Shown in pieces: positions 49,907 to 57,472 of a stretch of DNA of 64,000 bases. The stretch covers positions 1 through 64,000 of the forward strand of contig DATGHU010000028.1 in assembly GCA_035307765.1 (NCBI GenBank). Direction: 5' to 3'. Under the pieces are notes generated by a model that worked only from the letters and a program-made list of their open reading frames with translations, searched no databases and was not told the origin of the DNA. Each line of letters opens with the position of its first letter. The first letter of the stretch is position 1. This DNA comes from a bacterium (GTDB taxonomy: Bacteria; Sysuimicrobiota; Sysuimicrobiia; Sysuimicrobiales; Segetimicrobiaceae). Made by a program: the position numbers and the translations under genes.

Positions 49907-50818
49907 CTACGCCGGCTGCAGCGATTCGATCCGCGGCCGGAACCCGGCGCGCAGGAGACACTGCACGTAGTCCTCCGGCCGGAGCTCTTCGCGCCGCCCG
50001 TCGGACAGCGCCAGCACGATCCCCTCCAGCACGTTCGTGGCGAACGAGCGCCCCTCCATCTCCGGGGACACCGTGATCAGCGTCCGGACCCGGCGCCGGC
50101 GCAACTCCTCGGTGTCCTCGCGCGTCACCGTCTGGGTCAGGACCGTCTTGCCCGCCAGGTCGGCGGGCATGTATCGCCGGATGAAGTGAAAGTCGCCGGC
50201 GAGCACCTCGGCCCACTGAAAAAGCCGCGGGTAGCGGGGCGTGTTCTGCTCCTGCTTCCCCCCGGTGGGGTAAAGCAGCTGAAACGGCAGCTTGGTGAGG
50301 ATCGGCAGCAGGCACGCGGCCAGCAGCCGCACCGTCCCCAACGTGCGCATCGGGATGGGAAGGCCGAGGGCGAAGTAGAAATCCCCGAAGAGCGTCACCG
50401 CCCCGGCCTCGACGAACGCCTCGGCCATCCCGTACCGGTCGACGCTGCTCACCAGCAGCACCCGGCGACCGGCGAACGAGATCCCGGCTTCGCGGGGCAG
50501 GTAGTCGAGGATCAGGTACTTCTCCCACGAGTTCTTGATCCCGCCGCCGTCCACCACCGGCGTCCGGGTCACCCCCCGGATCAACCGGGCGGCGTCGCGG
50601 ATCTGATACCGCGACCCGCCCGCGCGGAGGAAGAGGTCGATGCCCCCCATGCCGATCGCGTCCACCTGCCCGTCCAGCTCGCGCACCAGCGTCCGGAAGC
50701 GGGCGGTGTCCCCGTCGGTCCCGATCCGCTCGATGATGAAGCGCTCGCCGAGGATGTCCGTTTCGACCCGCTTGTCCCGAGTGCTGCTGCCCAAACTGAC
50801 ACTGACCACGCGCTTCAT
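49907..50818 (-). CDS. Conserved protein of the so-called quinate 5-dehydrogenase family
   Basis: A 303-residue protein found beside the AAR-like gene. It begins MKRVVSVSLGSSTRDKRVE, then RIGTDGD, DAIGMGGIDLFLRAGG, VVDGGGIKN and LLVSSVDRYGMAEAF. It ends with PEMEGRSFATNVLEG and RPEDYVQCLLRAGFRPR. From memory such proteins are annotated quinate 5-dehydrogenase in Firmicutes genomes, but I see no clear dinucleotide-binding GxGxxG motif, so that name is doubtful. It starts 11 bases after coaX. The constant pairing with a thioester-reductase-like protein hints at a shared pathway. Confidence 0.55.
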   Translation of the reverse strand: MKRVVSVSLGSSTRDKRVETDILGERFIIERIGTDGDTARFRTLVRELDGQVDAIGMGGIDLFLRAGGSRYQIRDAARLIRGVTRTPVVDGGGIKNSWEKYLILDYLPREAGISFAGRRVLLVSSVDRYGMAEAFVEAGAVTLFGDFYFALGLPIPMRTLGTVRLLAACLLPILTKLPFQLLYPTGGKQEQNTPRYPRLFQWAEVLAGDFHFIRRYMPADLAGKTVLTQTVTREDTEELRRRRVRTLITVSPEMEGRSFATNVLEGIVLALSDGRREELRPEDYVQCLLRAGFRPRIESLQPA

Positions 50819-51800: not shown

Positions 51801-52757
51801 CTACCCGGCGAGGCCGGGGACGCCGCCGAGCGTCCGCGCCGTCATCACCGAGCGCATCACCGCCTCGGCGACGACCTCGGGGACCGCGGCCTGCACGGCG
51901 AGCCAGTCGGATGCGACCTCCCCGTTGCTCAGGACGAAGAACGTGTCGCCGTCGAGCGAGGTGTGGGATGGCGAGACGGCGCGGGCAAGGCCGGTGTGGG
52001 CGAGCAGCGCGAGCCGCGTGGCCTGGGACTTCGTCAGCGCGGCGTCCGTCGCCACCACCCCCAACGTGGTGTGGAAGCCGGAGCCGCGCCCGAGGCCGTG
52101 GGCCATCAGATACGCGGTCGTGCCGGCGAACCGCCCGCGGTCGGGATCCCGCGCGCCGGCCAGGATCCGCCCGCTGCGGACGTCCACGACATCGCCGAAC
52201 GCATTGGTCACCACGATCGCCGCGACGACCGCCCCGCCGGCGACCCGGGTGCCCCAGGTCCCGACGCCGGACTTCATCGCCCCCCGGACCCCGAAGAGCT
52301 TCCCCACCATCGCCCCTGTGCCGACCCCAACACACCCCTCTTCGACGGGTCCCGCCCGCGCCGCCCGGCAGGCGGCCGCCCCCATCGCCGCATCGGGGCG
52401 GGTGTCCGCGCTGCCGATGTCCAGATCGTAGATCACCGCGGCGGGCACGATCGGGACCCGCGCCCGGGACGTCGGGTACCCGATCCCGCGGGCCCCGAGA
52501 TACTCGACCGCCCCGTCCGCGGCGGCGAGGCCGAAGGCGCTCCCCCCGCAGAGCAGCACGGCGTGAACCCGTTCCACGAGGTTCTCGGGTCGCAGCAGAT
52601 CGGTCTCGCGCGTCCCGGGAGCACCGCCCAGCACCGCCCCGCCGGCGACGGCCCCCTCCCCGCACAGCACCGCGGTGCACCCGGTGAGGTGCTCCAGATC
52701 GGTGGCGTGGCCGACGGTGATCCCCGGCACGTCGGTGATCGCGGCGCCGGCGGTCAC
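51801..52757 (-). CDS. P1 family (DmpA-like) Ntn-hydrolase peptidase
   Basis: A 318-residue member of the P1/DmpA-BapA family, enzymes that self-cleave to free an N-terminal nucleophile and act as aminopeptidases, beta-aminopeptidases or amidases. Family traits: ITDVPGITVGHATD at the start, GGAPGTRETDLLRP, LLCGGSAFGLAAADG, VGTGAMVGKLFG and GVVATDAALTKSQATRLA. I cannot fix the cleavage site with confidence. The GTG start overlaps the birA stop (GTGA), so it is coupled to biotin ligase as the last gene of the folate operon. Its substrate is unknown. Confidence 0.85.
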   Translation of the reverse strand: MTAGAAITDVPGITVGHATDLEHLTGCTAVLCGEGAVAGGAVLGGAPGTRETDLLRPENLVERVHAVLLCGGSAFGLAAADGAVEYLGARGIGYPTSRARVPIVPAAVIYDLDIGSADTRPDAAMGAAACRAARAGPVEEGCVGVGTGAMVGKLFGVRGAMKSGVGTWGTRVAGGAVVAAIVVTNAFGDVVDVRSGRILAGARDPDRGRFAGTTAYLMAHGLGRGSGFHTTLGVVATDAALTKSQATRLALLAHTGLARAVSPSHTSLDGDTFFVLSNGEVASDWLAVQAAVPEVVAEAVMRSVMTARTLGGVPGLAG

Positions 52758-53527
52758 CGGCCCGGCTCCCGCAGCCGCAGGTCGCCGGCGACGACTCGCC
52801 GGATCTCGCCGCCGTCGAGCCGCACGAGCAGCGCTCCCGCCTCGTCGAGATCGAGCGCGGTCCCCTCGATCGCGCCGTCGGGCATCTCCACGCGGACTGA
52901 CCGGCCGAGGGTGTCGGTCGTCTCGCGCCACCGCCGCAGCGTCGGCCCGGTCCCGCCGGACTTCAGCTCCGCGTACGCGCGGTCCAGTTCGCGCAGCACG
53001 GCGCGGATCAGCCCTTCCCGATCCACGGGGTGGCCGAGCAGGGCCTGGAGCGAGGTGGCGGGGTACCCCTCGATCACCGGGAGCGCCGCGAGGGCGATGT
53101 TCGCGTTGATCCCGACGCCCACCACCACCCACTCGGCGCCGGCGGTCGCCTCGGCCAGGATGCCGGCGATCTTGCCGCCGTCGACGAGGACATCGTTCGG
53201 CCACTTCACGCGGGCCGGGAGCCCGGTGAGCTCGCGGATCGCCCGGGCGGTCGCGACCCCCGCCCCAAGGCCCAGGAGCGGGACGCGCTCCAGGGGGAGC
53301 TCCGGGCGGAGGATCACGGACAGCCAGATGCCGCCGCGGGGGGACGTCCACGATCGCCCGCGGCGGCCGCGGCCGGCGGTCTGCTCGTCCGCCAGGATGA
53401 CGGTGCCCTCGGGAGCTGAGACCTCGGTCAGCTGCACCGCCAGGTCGTTCGTCGACGGGAGGGACTCGTGCCAGCGGACGTAGCGGCCGATCAGGCGAGT
53501 GCCGAGGTCGGCGAACCGGTCGATCAT
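52754..53527 (-). CDS. birA: Biotin--[acetyl-CoA-carboxylase] ligase
   Basis: Attaches biotin to the biotin carboxyl carrier protein; 257 residues. Motifs: SLPSTNDLAVQ, the biotinoyl-AMP loop GRGRRGRSWTSPRGG, KWPNDVLVDGGKIAGIL and VGVGINAN. The C-terminal cap domain is present (DTLGRSVRVEM). There is no N-terminal DNA-binding domain, so it is a ligase only, not a repressor. ATG 53527 overlaps the folK stop (ATGA) and its own stop overlaps the P1 peptidase start. Confidence 0.93.
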   Translation of the reverse strand: MIDRFADLGTRLIGRYVRWHESLPSTNDLAVQLTEVSAPEGTVILADEQTAGRGRRGRSWTSPRGGIWLSVILRPELPLERVPLLGLGAGVATARAIRELTGLPARVKWPNDVLVDGGKIAGILAEATAGAEWVVVGVGINANIALAALPVIEGYPATSLQALLGHPVDREGLIRAVLRELDRAYAELKSGGTGPTLRRWRETTDTLGRSVRVEMPDGAIEGTALDLDEAGALLVRLDGGEIRRVVAGDLRLREPGR

Positions 53528-54672
53528 CGATCGCCCCCCGCCGCGGTCGGGCTCGGGCGGTAGACGCGCACGGCCTCGCGATCCGGGAGCGCCTCGAGCA
53601 GGGCTTCCACCGACGCGCCGTCGGGCAGCCGCAACCCGGGGACCAGCTCGGCGAGGGGGACGAGCGCGAACGCTCGGCGGCGGAGTTCGGCGTGCGGGAT
53701 CACCAGGTCCGGCGTCGCCAGCTCGAGCGCATCGTAGACGAGGATGTCGATGTCGATCGTCCGCGGTCCCCAGCGGACGGTCCGCACCCGGCCCAGCTTC
53801 GCTTCGACCTCGAGGCAGCGCGCGAGCAGCGCCGCGGAGGGGAGGGCCGTCCGGACCTGCACCACTTGGTTGAGGAAGCAGGGCTGATCGGTCTTTCCCC
53901 AGGGAGGCGATTCGTAGAGATGCGAGGCGGCGACGACGCGCAGGTCGGGAGTGTCCAGGAGGGCCCTGGCCTGCGCCAGCATCTGCGCACGGTCGCCCTG
54001 GTTGGAGCCGAGGCCCAGGAACACGGAGGCGGGTTCGTCCCCTTCCCGCGCGCGCCCCAGCGCTTCCCATCCTTCGCGCAGCACCAGCGCCCCGAGCAGG
54101 AGGGCCGCCCCCGGGTCGGCCCACCCGAGCCCCACCCGCTGCGCCGCGAGGCCGACGAGCACCACCCCGGCCATCAAGCCGCAGGCCAGGTTCCCCATCG
54201 CGTCCTCGCGCAGCGCCTCGCTCCCCAGCACGCGCGCGACCCGCCGCTTCGCCGAGGAGAGCCACGGCATGCCGAGCAGCGCCGCCAGCGAGACCGCGAA
54301 CCCCCACGCTCCGGGTGCGACCCCAACCGGCCTCCGGAGACGCTCGGCGGCCCCGATCAGGATGTAGACGGCAAGCGCGAGCAGGCATCCCGCGACCACA
54401 CGGGCCGAGAGGCGCTCGGCCGCGGCGACGCGCCGGGCGTCCTGATCGGAAGCGGACCGGGCCTCGACCAGCAGCCGCCACAGCACCGCCGCGCCGGATA
54501 TCAGCTCGATCAAGCTGTCCAGCCCGAACACCTCGAGGGACAGGCTCCGGGCGGCCACGCCGGCGGCGACCGCCACGCCGCCTTCCGCGAGCATCCAGGC
54601 CATGGAGACCCACTCCAGGAGGATCGCGCGCCGGAGGGGGGCGCGGGACCCGGCGGCCGGGGCCGCGATCAT
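53524..54672 (-). CDS. folK: Fusion of a CDF-type membrane protein with FolK pyrophosphokinase
   Basis: One uninterrupted 382-residue frame. Residues 10-210 are a complete CDF-like cation transporter module of about five or six helices: FGLDSLIELISGAAVLWRL, MPWLSSAKRRVARVLGS, then WADPGAALLLGALVLREGWEAL, its usual ending. Residues 215-375 are 6-hydroxymethyl-7,8-dihydropterin pyrophosphokinase: VFLGLGSNQGDR, YESPPWGKTDQPCFLNQVV, GPRTIDIDILVYD and IPHAELRRRAFALVPL, with catalytic Asp residues present. A GTG at 54024 could start FolK alone, with AAGGGG about 14 bases upstream. ATG 54672 overlaps the folB stop and the end overlaps birA, all coupled. Membrane tethering of a folate enzyme would be unusual. 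Confidence 0.85.
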   Translation of the reverse strand: MIAAPAAGSRAPLRRAILLEWVSMAWMLAEGGVAVAAGVAARSLSLEVFGLDSLIELISGAAVLWRLLVEARSASDQDARRVAAAERLSARVVAGCLLALAVYILIGAAERLRRPVGVAPGAWGFAVSLAALLGMPWLSSAKRRVARVLGSEALREDAMGNLACGLMAGVVLVGLAAQRVGLGWADPGAALLLGALVLREGWEALGRAREGDEPASVFLGLGSNQGDRAQMLAQARALLDTPDLRVVAASHLYESPPWGKTDQPCFLNQVVQVRTALPSAALLARCLEVEAKLGRVRTVRWGPRTIDIDILVYDALELATPDLVIPHAELRRRAFALVPLAELVPGLRLPDGASVEALLEALPDREAVRVYRPSPTAAGGDR

Positions 54673-55034
54673 GCCCGCCGCCGCCGCGTGACCTCGACCG
54701 CGGCGTAGGCGAGCGGTCCACCCAGCTGCACGTGGGGCTTCCGGACGCGCACCGTCACCGCCTCCACCCGCGCGACCTCCAGCAGGCGGTGCGCGACCGC
54801 CTCGGCCACCGCCTCGAGCAGCCGGCAGCGCTCCCCCACCAGCACGTCGCGCACCCGCCCGTACACGTCCCGGTAGTCGAGGGTGTCGGAGAGCTCGTCG
54901 CTGTGCCCGGCGCGGTGCAGCGAGGTCTCCACCGTCACGTCGACGAGGAAGACCTGTCCCTTCTCCTGTTCCTCCGGGCTCACCCCGTGGTAGGCGTAGA
55001 ACGCCATCTCGCGCAGCACGATCCGATCGGGCAC
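54669..55034 (-). CDS. folB: Dihydroneopterin aldolase
   Basis: Converts 7,8-dihydroneopterin to hydroxymethyl-dihydropterin; 121 residues, normal for the family. MPDRIVLREMAFYAYHGVSPEEQEKGQ contains the conserved YHGV and Glu; DTLDYRDVY and LLEAVAEAVAHRLL follow, and a late Lys lies in VRVRKPHVQLGG. GTG start 3 bases after the folP stop. It hands its product to the FolK module encoded next. Confidence 0.93.
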   Translation of the reverse strand: MPDRIVLREMAFYAYHGVSPEEQEKGQVFLVDVTVETSLHRAGHSDELSDTLDYRDVYGRVRDVLVGERCRLLEAVAEAVAHRLLEVARVEAVTVRVRKPHVQLGGPLAYAAVEVTRRRRA

Positions 55035-55037
55035 CGC

Positions 55038-55880
55038 CTACGCGCCTCCCGCGGCCGGGGGCGTCCCCCGCACGACGGCGTCGGTCATCCGCGCCACCCG
55101 GACGATGGTCCGGACGTCGTGCGCGCGCACGATGTCCGCCCCGTTCATGATCGCGACCGCCACCGTCGCGGCCGTCCCCTCGACGCGCTCATGCACCGGA
55201 AGGTTCAACACTTTCCCGATGCTCCCTTTGCGCGAGGTCCCGATCAGGATGGGACGGCCCAGCACGGTCAGGTCCCGGAGTCGTCGCAGGATCTCCATGT
55301 TCTGCGACACCGTGAGCCCGAACCCATACCCCGGGTCCACCAGGGTCTGCGCCTCCGCGATCCCCGCGTCTGCGGCGGCCGCAATCCGCGCGCGGAGAAA
55401 CGCCACGGTCTCGCCGACCGCGTCGGCGCTTTCCGCCCGCTGGTCCCAATCCATCAGGACGACCGGCGCCCCCGCGCGCGCCACGAGGCGCGCCATCCCC
55501 GGGTCGCCGCGCAGGGCCGACACATCGTTCACCAGCACCGCCCCCGCCTCCAGCGCCGCCCCGGCGACCCGCGCGGAGAACGTGTCGACGCTCACGGGCA
55601 CGCCGATCCCGACCAGCCGCCGAATCGCCGGGATCGTCAGGCGGATCTCCTCGGCCACCTCGACCGGCGGCGCCCCCGGCCGCGTCGAACGGCCGCCGAC
55701 GTCGAGCAGGTCGACCCCCGCTTCCCGCATCGCCTGCCCGCGCGCCTCCGCGGCCCCCGCATCGCCGGCGAGGCCGTCCCCGGCAAACGAATCCGGCGCC
55801 ATGTTGATGATCCCCATGACGAACGTCCGGCGGCCGAACTCCAGCCCCAGCGGTCCGACCCGCGCCGCCTGGGAGGTCAT
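55038..55880 (-). CDS. folP: Dihydropteroate synthase
   Basis: Condenses hydroxymethyl-dihydropterin pyrophosphate with p-aminobenzoate; the sulfonamide target. 280 residues, TIM barrel. Motifs: MGIINMAPDSFAGDG (pyrophosphate loop), LLDVGGRSTRPGA, VSVDTFSARVA, VNDVSALRGDP, LVDPGYGFGLTVSQN, IGTSRKGSIGKV and VRAHDVRTIVRVARM. ATG 55880 overlaps the ftcD stop (ATGA). It stands before folB and folK, as in other bacteria. Confidence 0.95.
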   Translation of the reverse strand: MTSQAARVGPLGLEFGRRTFVMGIINMAPDSFAGDGLAGDAGAAEARGQAMREAGVDLLDVGGRSTRPGAPPVEVAEEIRLTIPAIRRLVGIGVPVSVDTFSARVAGAALEAGAVLVNDVSALRGDPGMARLVARAGAPVVLMDWDQRAESADAVGETVAFLRARIAAAADAGIAEAQTLVDPGYGFGLTVSQNMEILRRLRDLTVLGRPILIGTSRKGSIGKVLNLPVHERVEGTAATVAVAIMNGADIVRAHDVRTIVRVARMTDAVVRGTPPAAGGA

Positions 55881-56797
55881 CGCCCGTGCGCGCCGGCGCC
55901 GGGGGATCCGTCCAGCCCCTGCGCCATCCGCAGCGGGTCGAAGATCTGTCCCGGGCGCAGGCCGCGCAGGCGCAGCGCGGCCAAGGGCTCGGGGGGCAGC
56001 GCCTCCCGCGGCGCGCACCCCACGAGCTCGCCCGCCTCGACGGTGAGGCCGCGGCGCGCCGCTTCGGCCTCGACCCGCTGAAACGCGGCGAGCGGAGGAG
56101 TCCGCCGGTAGTCGAGCAGATTCATCGACACCTGCGCCACCCCACGGGTCCGGAGGAACACCCCCATCGCTTGGACGGCGGGGAGCCCGCCCGAGGACTC
56201 GCGCACGGCGCGGGCGATCTCCCGCGCCGCGGCGACGTCGGGACTGTGAAGGTCGACGTTGAAAGCGATCAGGATGTCCCTCGCCCCCACCGCCACCGCG
56301 CCGGCGGTGGGGTGCACCCGCGCCGGCCCCAGATCGGGCGCCCGCTCCGGCTCGGCGATCGCCCCCTGCAGGCGCTCGAATCCCCCGCGCCGCACCTGGG
56401 CCAGGGTGCGCGGGCCCGCCTGGCCGTAGAGGAACACGGGCAGCGCCAGGCGCTCCGCCAACACCCCGCCCAATCGATGGGCCAGCGCGACGCACTCGGG
56501 CATCCCCCCCCCGACCAGCGGCACGATGGGAATCACGTCGACGGCCCCGATGCGTGGGTGCACGCCGCGGTGCGTACGGAGATCGATCCGCTCCACCGCC
56601 ACCGCCGCGCTGCGCAGCGCGGCGTCCAGCACGGCCGCGCTCGCGCCGACGAAGGTGAACACCGACCGGTTGTGATCGGGGTCGGCCGACACATCGAGGA
56701 GGCGGATACCCGCAACCGCCCGGATGCTCGCCGCCAGCGCGTCGAGGACCACCCTCCGGCGCCCCTCGCTGAAGTTTGGCACGCACTCCACCATCAT
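55877..56797 (-). CDS. ftcD: Glutamate formiminotransferase
   Basis: Transfers the formimino group of N-formiminoglutamate to tetrahydrofolate; 306 residues, the transferase half only (no cyclodeaminase domain). Motifs: ECVPNFSEGRR at the start, DPDHNRSVFTFVG, IDLRTHRGVHPRIGAVDVIP with the conserved His, LPVFLYGQA, and INLLDY-like VSMNLLDYRRTP. It is the first gene of the coupled ftcD-folP-folB-folK-birA run, so a one-carbon donor enzyme is co-made with folate synthesis. Two ATG codons begin the frame; no ribosome site is visible. Confidence 0.9.
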   Translation of the reverse strand: MMVECVPNFSEGRRRVVLDALAASIRAVAGIRLLDVSADPDHNRSVFTFVGASAAVLDAALRSAAVAVERIDLRTHRGVHPRIGAVDVIPIVPLVGGGMPECVALAHRLGGVLAERLALPVFLYGQAGPRTLAQVRRGGFERLQGAIAEPERAPDLGPARVHPTAGAVAVGARDILIAFNVDLHSPDVAAAREIARAVRESSGGLPAVQAMGVFLRTRGVAQVSMNLLDYRRTPPLAAFQRVEAEAARRGLTVEAGELVGCAPREALPPEPLAALRLRGLRPGQIFDPLRMAQGLDGSPGAGAHGR

Positions 56798-56871: not shown

Positions 56872-57231
56872 TTACTCGTCCTTGGGCTCGGTAACCCGCG
56901 AGAAGTGGATCACGGTCACCGTATCGTCCATGCCGACCGGGCGCCCGTAGATCTTGGAGAGAAACTCCATCAGGCCGGCGTGCTCCCTCGACGCGGGGTT
57001 CTCCCGTTCGATCTCCCTCGGAGTCACCTCCCGCAGCGCCTTGATCTCCACCCGATCGATCATCCCGGTGAAGATCCGCTGCTTCGTCCCAAACCGGCTC
57101 CCCACCGTGACCCAGACCAGCTGCCCGTCCTGGTATTTGTCGCGCTTGTCACCCAGGCGGATCGTCAGCGTCTTCCGGCCGTCGCGAAGCGCCTGGGTAA
57201 AGACGCTCGAGTAAAAATTGAGCGCGAACAT
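56872..57231 (-). CDS. ASCH-domain protein
   Basis: A 119-residue single ASCH domain, a PUA-like fold thought to bind RNA. MFALNFYSSVFTQALRDGRKTLTIRLGDK carries the ASCH pattern of a buried Phe/Tyr strand plus K-T-x-R; GQLVWVTVGSRFG and FTGMIDRVEIKALRE follow. ATG 57231 is preceded by GGAGG; an ATG at 57243 is inside that site. It is the next gene upstream of ftcD, 74 bases apart, and may be in the same transcript. Role unknown, possibly RNA modification or translation. Confidence 0.8.
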   Translation of the reverse strand: MFALNFYSSVFTQALRDGRKTLTIRLGDKRDKYQDGQLVWVTVGSRFGTKQRIFTGMIDRVEIKALREVTPREIERENPASREHAGLMEFLSKIYGRPVGMDDTVTVIHFSRVTEPKDE

Positions 57232-57472
57232 GCCTGCCTCCATGGACCAGACCTACCGGTCTCGTCGGCCGCGGTCGGGCGGGGCTCCGCGGCGGGCCGC
57301 CCGGAATGCTCCCCCCGATGCGGGCGTGGGGACCGGAATCGGCGTGCCGTTGCTTCGTGTCATCCGCCGCGCTTCCCTCCAGCACCCGTGCCGGCCTCTC
57401 TCGGTCGGTCTTGCGGAACATGTGGTCCGAGCCCCCCGTATGAGGGGGAGCCCCATTCTCCGGAGGTGTTCT

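Follow-up and report, generated by a model that had tools for sequence, protein, structure and literature searches.

A CDF-like membrane module joined in frame to FolK in a folate gene cassette and its fate in related genomes

Does the joining of two proteins in one reading frame mean that they work together? The window analysed here, a 64,000-nt stretch of DNA from a draft bacterial genome (G000), contains a gene in which a transporter-like membrane protein of the CDF type runs directly into the folate enzyme FolK, and it offers a clean case for asking whether fusion at the sequence level means functional coupling.

The fusion ORF (54672-53524, minus strand) extends from an ATG to a TGA and encodes 382 aa with zero internal stops, its two parts lying in the same frame throughout. 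The ATG overlaps the folB stop codon as ATGA, and the stop codon of the fusion (53524..53526) overlaps the birA start, also as ATGA. Residues 1-210 (54043..54672) form a six-helix CDF-like module, recognized from PF01545, from AlphaFold2 and from conservation with nine further short CDFs in the family. A linker of about four residues (211-214, 54031..54042) leads from the end of the last membrane helix to the first FolK strand, and the FolK (HPPK) domain occupies residues 215-382 (53527..54030). In Pfam, Cation_efflux matched residues 23-204 (E 2.1e-15) and HPPK residues 218-345 (E 1.4e-37), both above the cut-off. In an AlphaFold2 model of the fusion, built from a 14-row alignment (mean pLDDT 84, pTM 0.65), the first of six long helices covers residues 7-41 and the last 185-210, and FolK opens with a strand at 215-223; a Foldseek search with this model retrieved solved HPPKs (TM 0.91 for the HPPK part), YiiP giving a weaker match. 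Pfam, the model and the open frame therefore agree with the first-pass annotation, which had ended the module at residue 210 and started FolK at about 216 with no stop between. Because the DNA is so GC-rich, an open linker alone is weak evidence; what speaks strongly for the fusion is that no stop codon closes the transporter ORF itself, and a second genus shows the same. Long antisense ORFs, such as one of 338 aa opposite the fusion (53692-54708, plus strand), are expected in GC-rich DNA and give no evidence of a gene.

The fusion lies in a cassette of tightly overlapping minus-strand genes in the order ftcD-folP-folB-CDF::folK-birA. Upstream are ftcD (glutamate formimidoyltransferase, 55877..56797, TIGR02024), which overlaps the start of folP (dihydropteroate synthase, 55038..55880, TIGR01496), and folB (dihydroneopterin aldolase, 54669..55034, TIGR00525); directly downstream is birA (52754..53527, TIGR00121). 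All neighbours had been taken for folate genes, which is true of FtcD, FolP and FolB but not of BirA, a biotin ligase. Two further minus-strand ORFs in the window had no NCBIfam match at 1e-5, one of 123 aa upstream of ftcD (56875-57243) and one of 303 aa (49910-50818) that starts with MKRVVSVSLGSSTRDKRVET and adjoins a type III pantothenate kinase.

FolK is a Mg-requiring kinase that must act in the cytosol. The FolK domain of the fusion scored 131.5 bits against the TIGR01498 folK equivalog (cut-off 54.1) and 129 against PF01288 (25.7). It contains RWGPRTIDID at 300-309, including WGPR (301-304) and the Mg-binding pair D307/D309, as well as the conserved H327, and these motif residues line up with those of solved HPPKs. 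The gene is the only folK in the window's genome, which is 96% complete, and folK is likewise single copy in every genome where it was found. With a whole domain, the motif residues, the HPPK fold and a folate gene neighbourhood, this FolK is predicted to work as the usual pyrophosphokinase, differing from other HPPKs in bearing a six-helix membrane module at its N terminus.

FolK fusions described so far are FolB-FolK, FolK-FolP and FolB-FolK-FolP (PMC4224340, PMC1971073; PDB 2cg8, 3mcm and 2bmb). The present gene resembles these in that FolK is joined to a folate-synthesis protein or an operon neighbour, but there FolK is paired with soluble enzymes of its own pathway, and here with a membrane protein resembling a transporter. 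Neither transporter-FolK fusions nor CDFs fused to other proteins were found in a limited body of open-access literature, and CDF-FolK is apparently an undescribed domain pairing, relevant because FolK is a drug-target enzyme of folate synthesis.

The membrane module passed Pfam Cation_efflux with 57.5 bits (gathering score 26.6), and both the AlphaFold2 model and hydropathy gave it six transmembrane helices. It missed the NCBIfam TIGR01297 CDF cut-off (52.1 vs 82.35 bits). In FieF, D45, D49, H153 and D157 make up what we take to be metal site A; this four-ligand site is not reproduced in the module, which has D52, E56, G160 and C164 at these positions, only Asp52 being identical. Nor was the cytosolic C-terminal domain of CDFs found by Pfam or AlphaFold2, FolK coming straight after helix 6. 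The module is thus like the FieF/YiiP family in its six helices, in PF01545 and in D52, which equals FieF D45, with E56 replacing D49, but unlike it in having no C-terminal domain of its own and in the loss of H153 and the change of D157 to Cys. It also deviates at four positions from the helix-2 CDF signature (Montanini et al., PMC1868760), which the canonical CDF of G007, used as a control, passes. Short CDFs also occur in the same family as stand-alone proteins (e.g. the copies in G003, G005 and G010); these share 42-56% identity with the module but are free-standing and lie outside the folate cassette. E20, E30, D52, E56, E86, K142, D157 and C164 (module numbering) are invariant in an alignment of ten short CDFs. 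Helix 5 of several stand-alone copies retains a pair of cysteines; at these positions, members of the fused clade carry Gly/Ser and Cys. Judged from its sequence, the module is a divergent CDF relative without the C-terminal domain and a putative transporter. Where intact, it is under constraint about equal to that on FolK, pN/pS being 0.204/0.481 for the CDF and 0.197/0.455 for FolK between G000 and G001, and 0.267/0.513 and 0.322/0.633, respectively, between G000 and G005.

The analysis covered 12 genomes from the family and samples of 43 from the phylum and 386 from bacteria at large. A look for the same fusion in related genomes had been proposed, and it is indeed present in a second genus of the family: G005 carries it at full length, with 57% identity over residues 7-377 and zero stops. 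Further full-length matches were found neither in the 43 phylum genomes nor in the 386 bacterial ones, both being samples only. A search of two other phyla gave one FolK-only match and no fusion, and genome contigs scanned with the single protein gave FolK relatives only, a scan that is insensitive to distant copies. The recurrence in G005 bears on whether an indel in the draft assembly erased a stop codon and so joined two overlapping genes arranged as in G001. The G000 genome is in 51 contigs and the G001 arrangement differs from that of G000 by a frame, both in favour of such an error; however, G005 has the join in frame as well and the remnants in G008 and G010 are also in frame, which brings the arrangement to four separate assemblies, and we rejected an assembly error as extremely improbable.

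The remnants in G008 and G010, both of G005's genus, arose where most of the CDF was deleted in frame, with about 165 codons gone and about 47 left open into FolK. These ORFs (G008, L010:1468-2124, plus strand; G010, L007:2115-1459, minus strand) begin at the same folB-overlapping ATG (MIDA...), keep about 21 residues and then pass straight into the last helix, followed by linker and FolK; at the DNA level, the two ends of the G005 gene are each matched in G010 (E 6e-9 and 8e-14) and in G008 (E 4e-11 and 2e-8). The stub has a hydrophobic core and is modelled by AlphaFold2 as a single long helix in front of FolK. In G008/G010, changes at the first, second and third codon positions number 8, 15 and 14 in the stub and 15, 8 and 42 in FolK. 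The third-position excess seen in FolK is absent from the stub, indicating that the stub drifts and looks neutral, and the chance that its frame stayed open is 0.85 even without selection. A pair of frame-restoring indels in G008, considered as a sign of selection on the frame, was dropped because an ungapped DNA alignment fits. In G002, folK (L005) has an N-terminal extension of about 20 residues, MSEAERGKHSGDAAPSSAAR, which could be another CDF vestige.

Neutral drift of the stub would suit a scheme in which ribosomes also, or mainly, start inside the fused frame, free FolK being the working enzyme and the fusion a by-product. Such a start is also suggested in G005, G008 and G010 by a GTG before RAFLG, at the position of the FolK start in relatives (M-x-R-A-F-L-G or M-R-A-F-L-G), and in G000, where the first-pass annotation had named the GTG of codon 217 (54022..54024), by an AAGGGG 14 nt upstream, whose anti-SD duplex has -8.5 kcal/mol (random median -3.4, strongest 10% at -7.6). 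However, this 14-nt spacing is long, the GTG lies some two codons downstream of the usual start, within strand 1, which would be trimmed by starting there, and the valine of codon 217, preceding FLGLGSN, is also found in the congeners G001, G002 and G004. GTG 54024 thus appears to be a poor but not impossible FolK start. The GTG of G005 is better placed but comes without a Shine-Dalgarno sequence (0.1 kcal/mol). Moreover, any ribosome translating the CDF to its end would have to run on into FolK, so the fusion protein would be made whenever the CDF is. Overall, we consider it rather doubtful that internally started FolK is the working form.

Fusion is not obligatory, because in G001, a congener of G000, the CDF is adjacent to folK but in a separate frame, the CDF TGA and the folK GTG overlapping in GTGAGTGA (L004:1525-1540). 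Removal of one GTGA from this site would join the two frames, and G004, the sister of G001, which has no CDF, has a single GGTGAC at the junction (L009:1501-1537), making it plausible that a 4-nt duplication split a fusion in G001, or the reverse. The folB-folK interval is without a CDF in G002, G004, G006, G007, G009 and G011, and none was seen in the other phylum loci examined. In a folP-folB-folK-birA tree, G000 groups with G001 and G004, and G005 with G008 and G010. The CDF tree unites the cassette copies of G000, G001 and G005 with a stand-alone copy of G003 in one clade (support 100/100) and separates them from the family's other short CDFs. One old insertion followed by several losses, or two insertions, are possible histories for the CDF, and one fusion with one fission, or two fusions, for the join. 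The G000-G005 identities, alike for CDF and FolK (58% each), speak against the CDF having been transferred recently.

These relatives also bear on the proposal that the fusion links the provision of divalent metal to a kinase that depends on Mg. More generally, the CDF may move a divalent ion or a small solute and supply metal to, or regulate, the FolK that occupies the position of its C-terminal domain. The conservation of the fusion in two genera, the purifying selection on the CDF, the Mg requirement of FolK, the very short linker in the AlphaFold2 model and the acidic E20, E30, D52, E56 and D157, invariant in the short CDFs, speak for such coupling. Against it, FieF site A is altered (D49 to Glu56, H153 to Gly160, D157 to Cys164), the normal direction of CDFs is export, the CDF is unfused in G001, and the module is deleted in G008 and G010 and absent in G004, yet FolK is kept there as the only copy. 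Characterised CDFs mostly export Zn, Fe or Mn. Direct metal feeding is unlikely given the normal export direction of CDFs, the altered site and the survival of relatives that have one folK and no working module. Metal-supply coupling was rejected as the main explanation, there being no canonical metal site here and no module in these relatives. Functional or metal coupling as a whole seems to us quite unlikely. A reading in which FolK takes the part of the CDF regulatory domain and is controlled by a module that senses or transports an ion or a pterin-related solute is very unlikely; if true, folate synthesis would be entered through a regulated, membrane-bound step.

The reading that we favour, and consider probable, is that a transporter-like CDF gene was inserted in the folate cassette, lost its stop codon and so tethered FolK, the join being tolerated with no metabolic coupling required. 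A short CDF gene would have landed between the overlapping folB and folK in one bacterial family, and loss of its stop codon in G000 and in a second genus would have given a single CDF-FolK polypeptide. The six helices would span the membrane, the two termini of this part facing the cytosol, and FolK would hang off the last helix, in the place of the regulatory C-terminal domain usual in CDFs. Since most CDFs have both their N and C termini in the cytosol (PMC1868760), FolK would face the cytosol. There it would be membrane-bound, co-produced with the CDF and presumably working as usual. Of the original interpretation, the join is real and we, too, found no description of one; metal supply is not supported, and anchoring holds provided that the whole fusion is translated.

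The locus in this family shows several stages at once, with no insert, with the insert unfused, with it fused and with it deleted to a stub. The relatives suggest that the membrane partner is dispensable for FolK, and we argue from the absence and decay of the module in them that fusion mostly does not mean functional coupling here.
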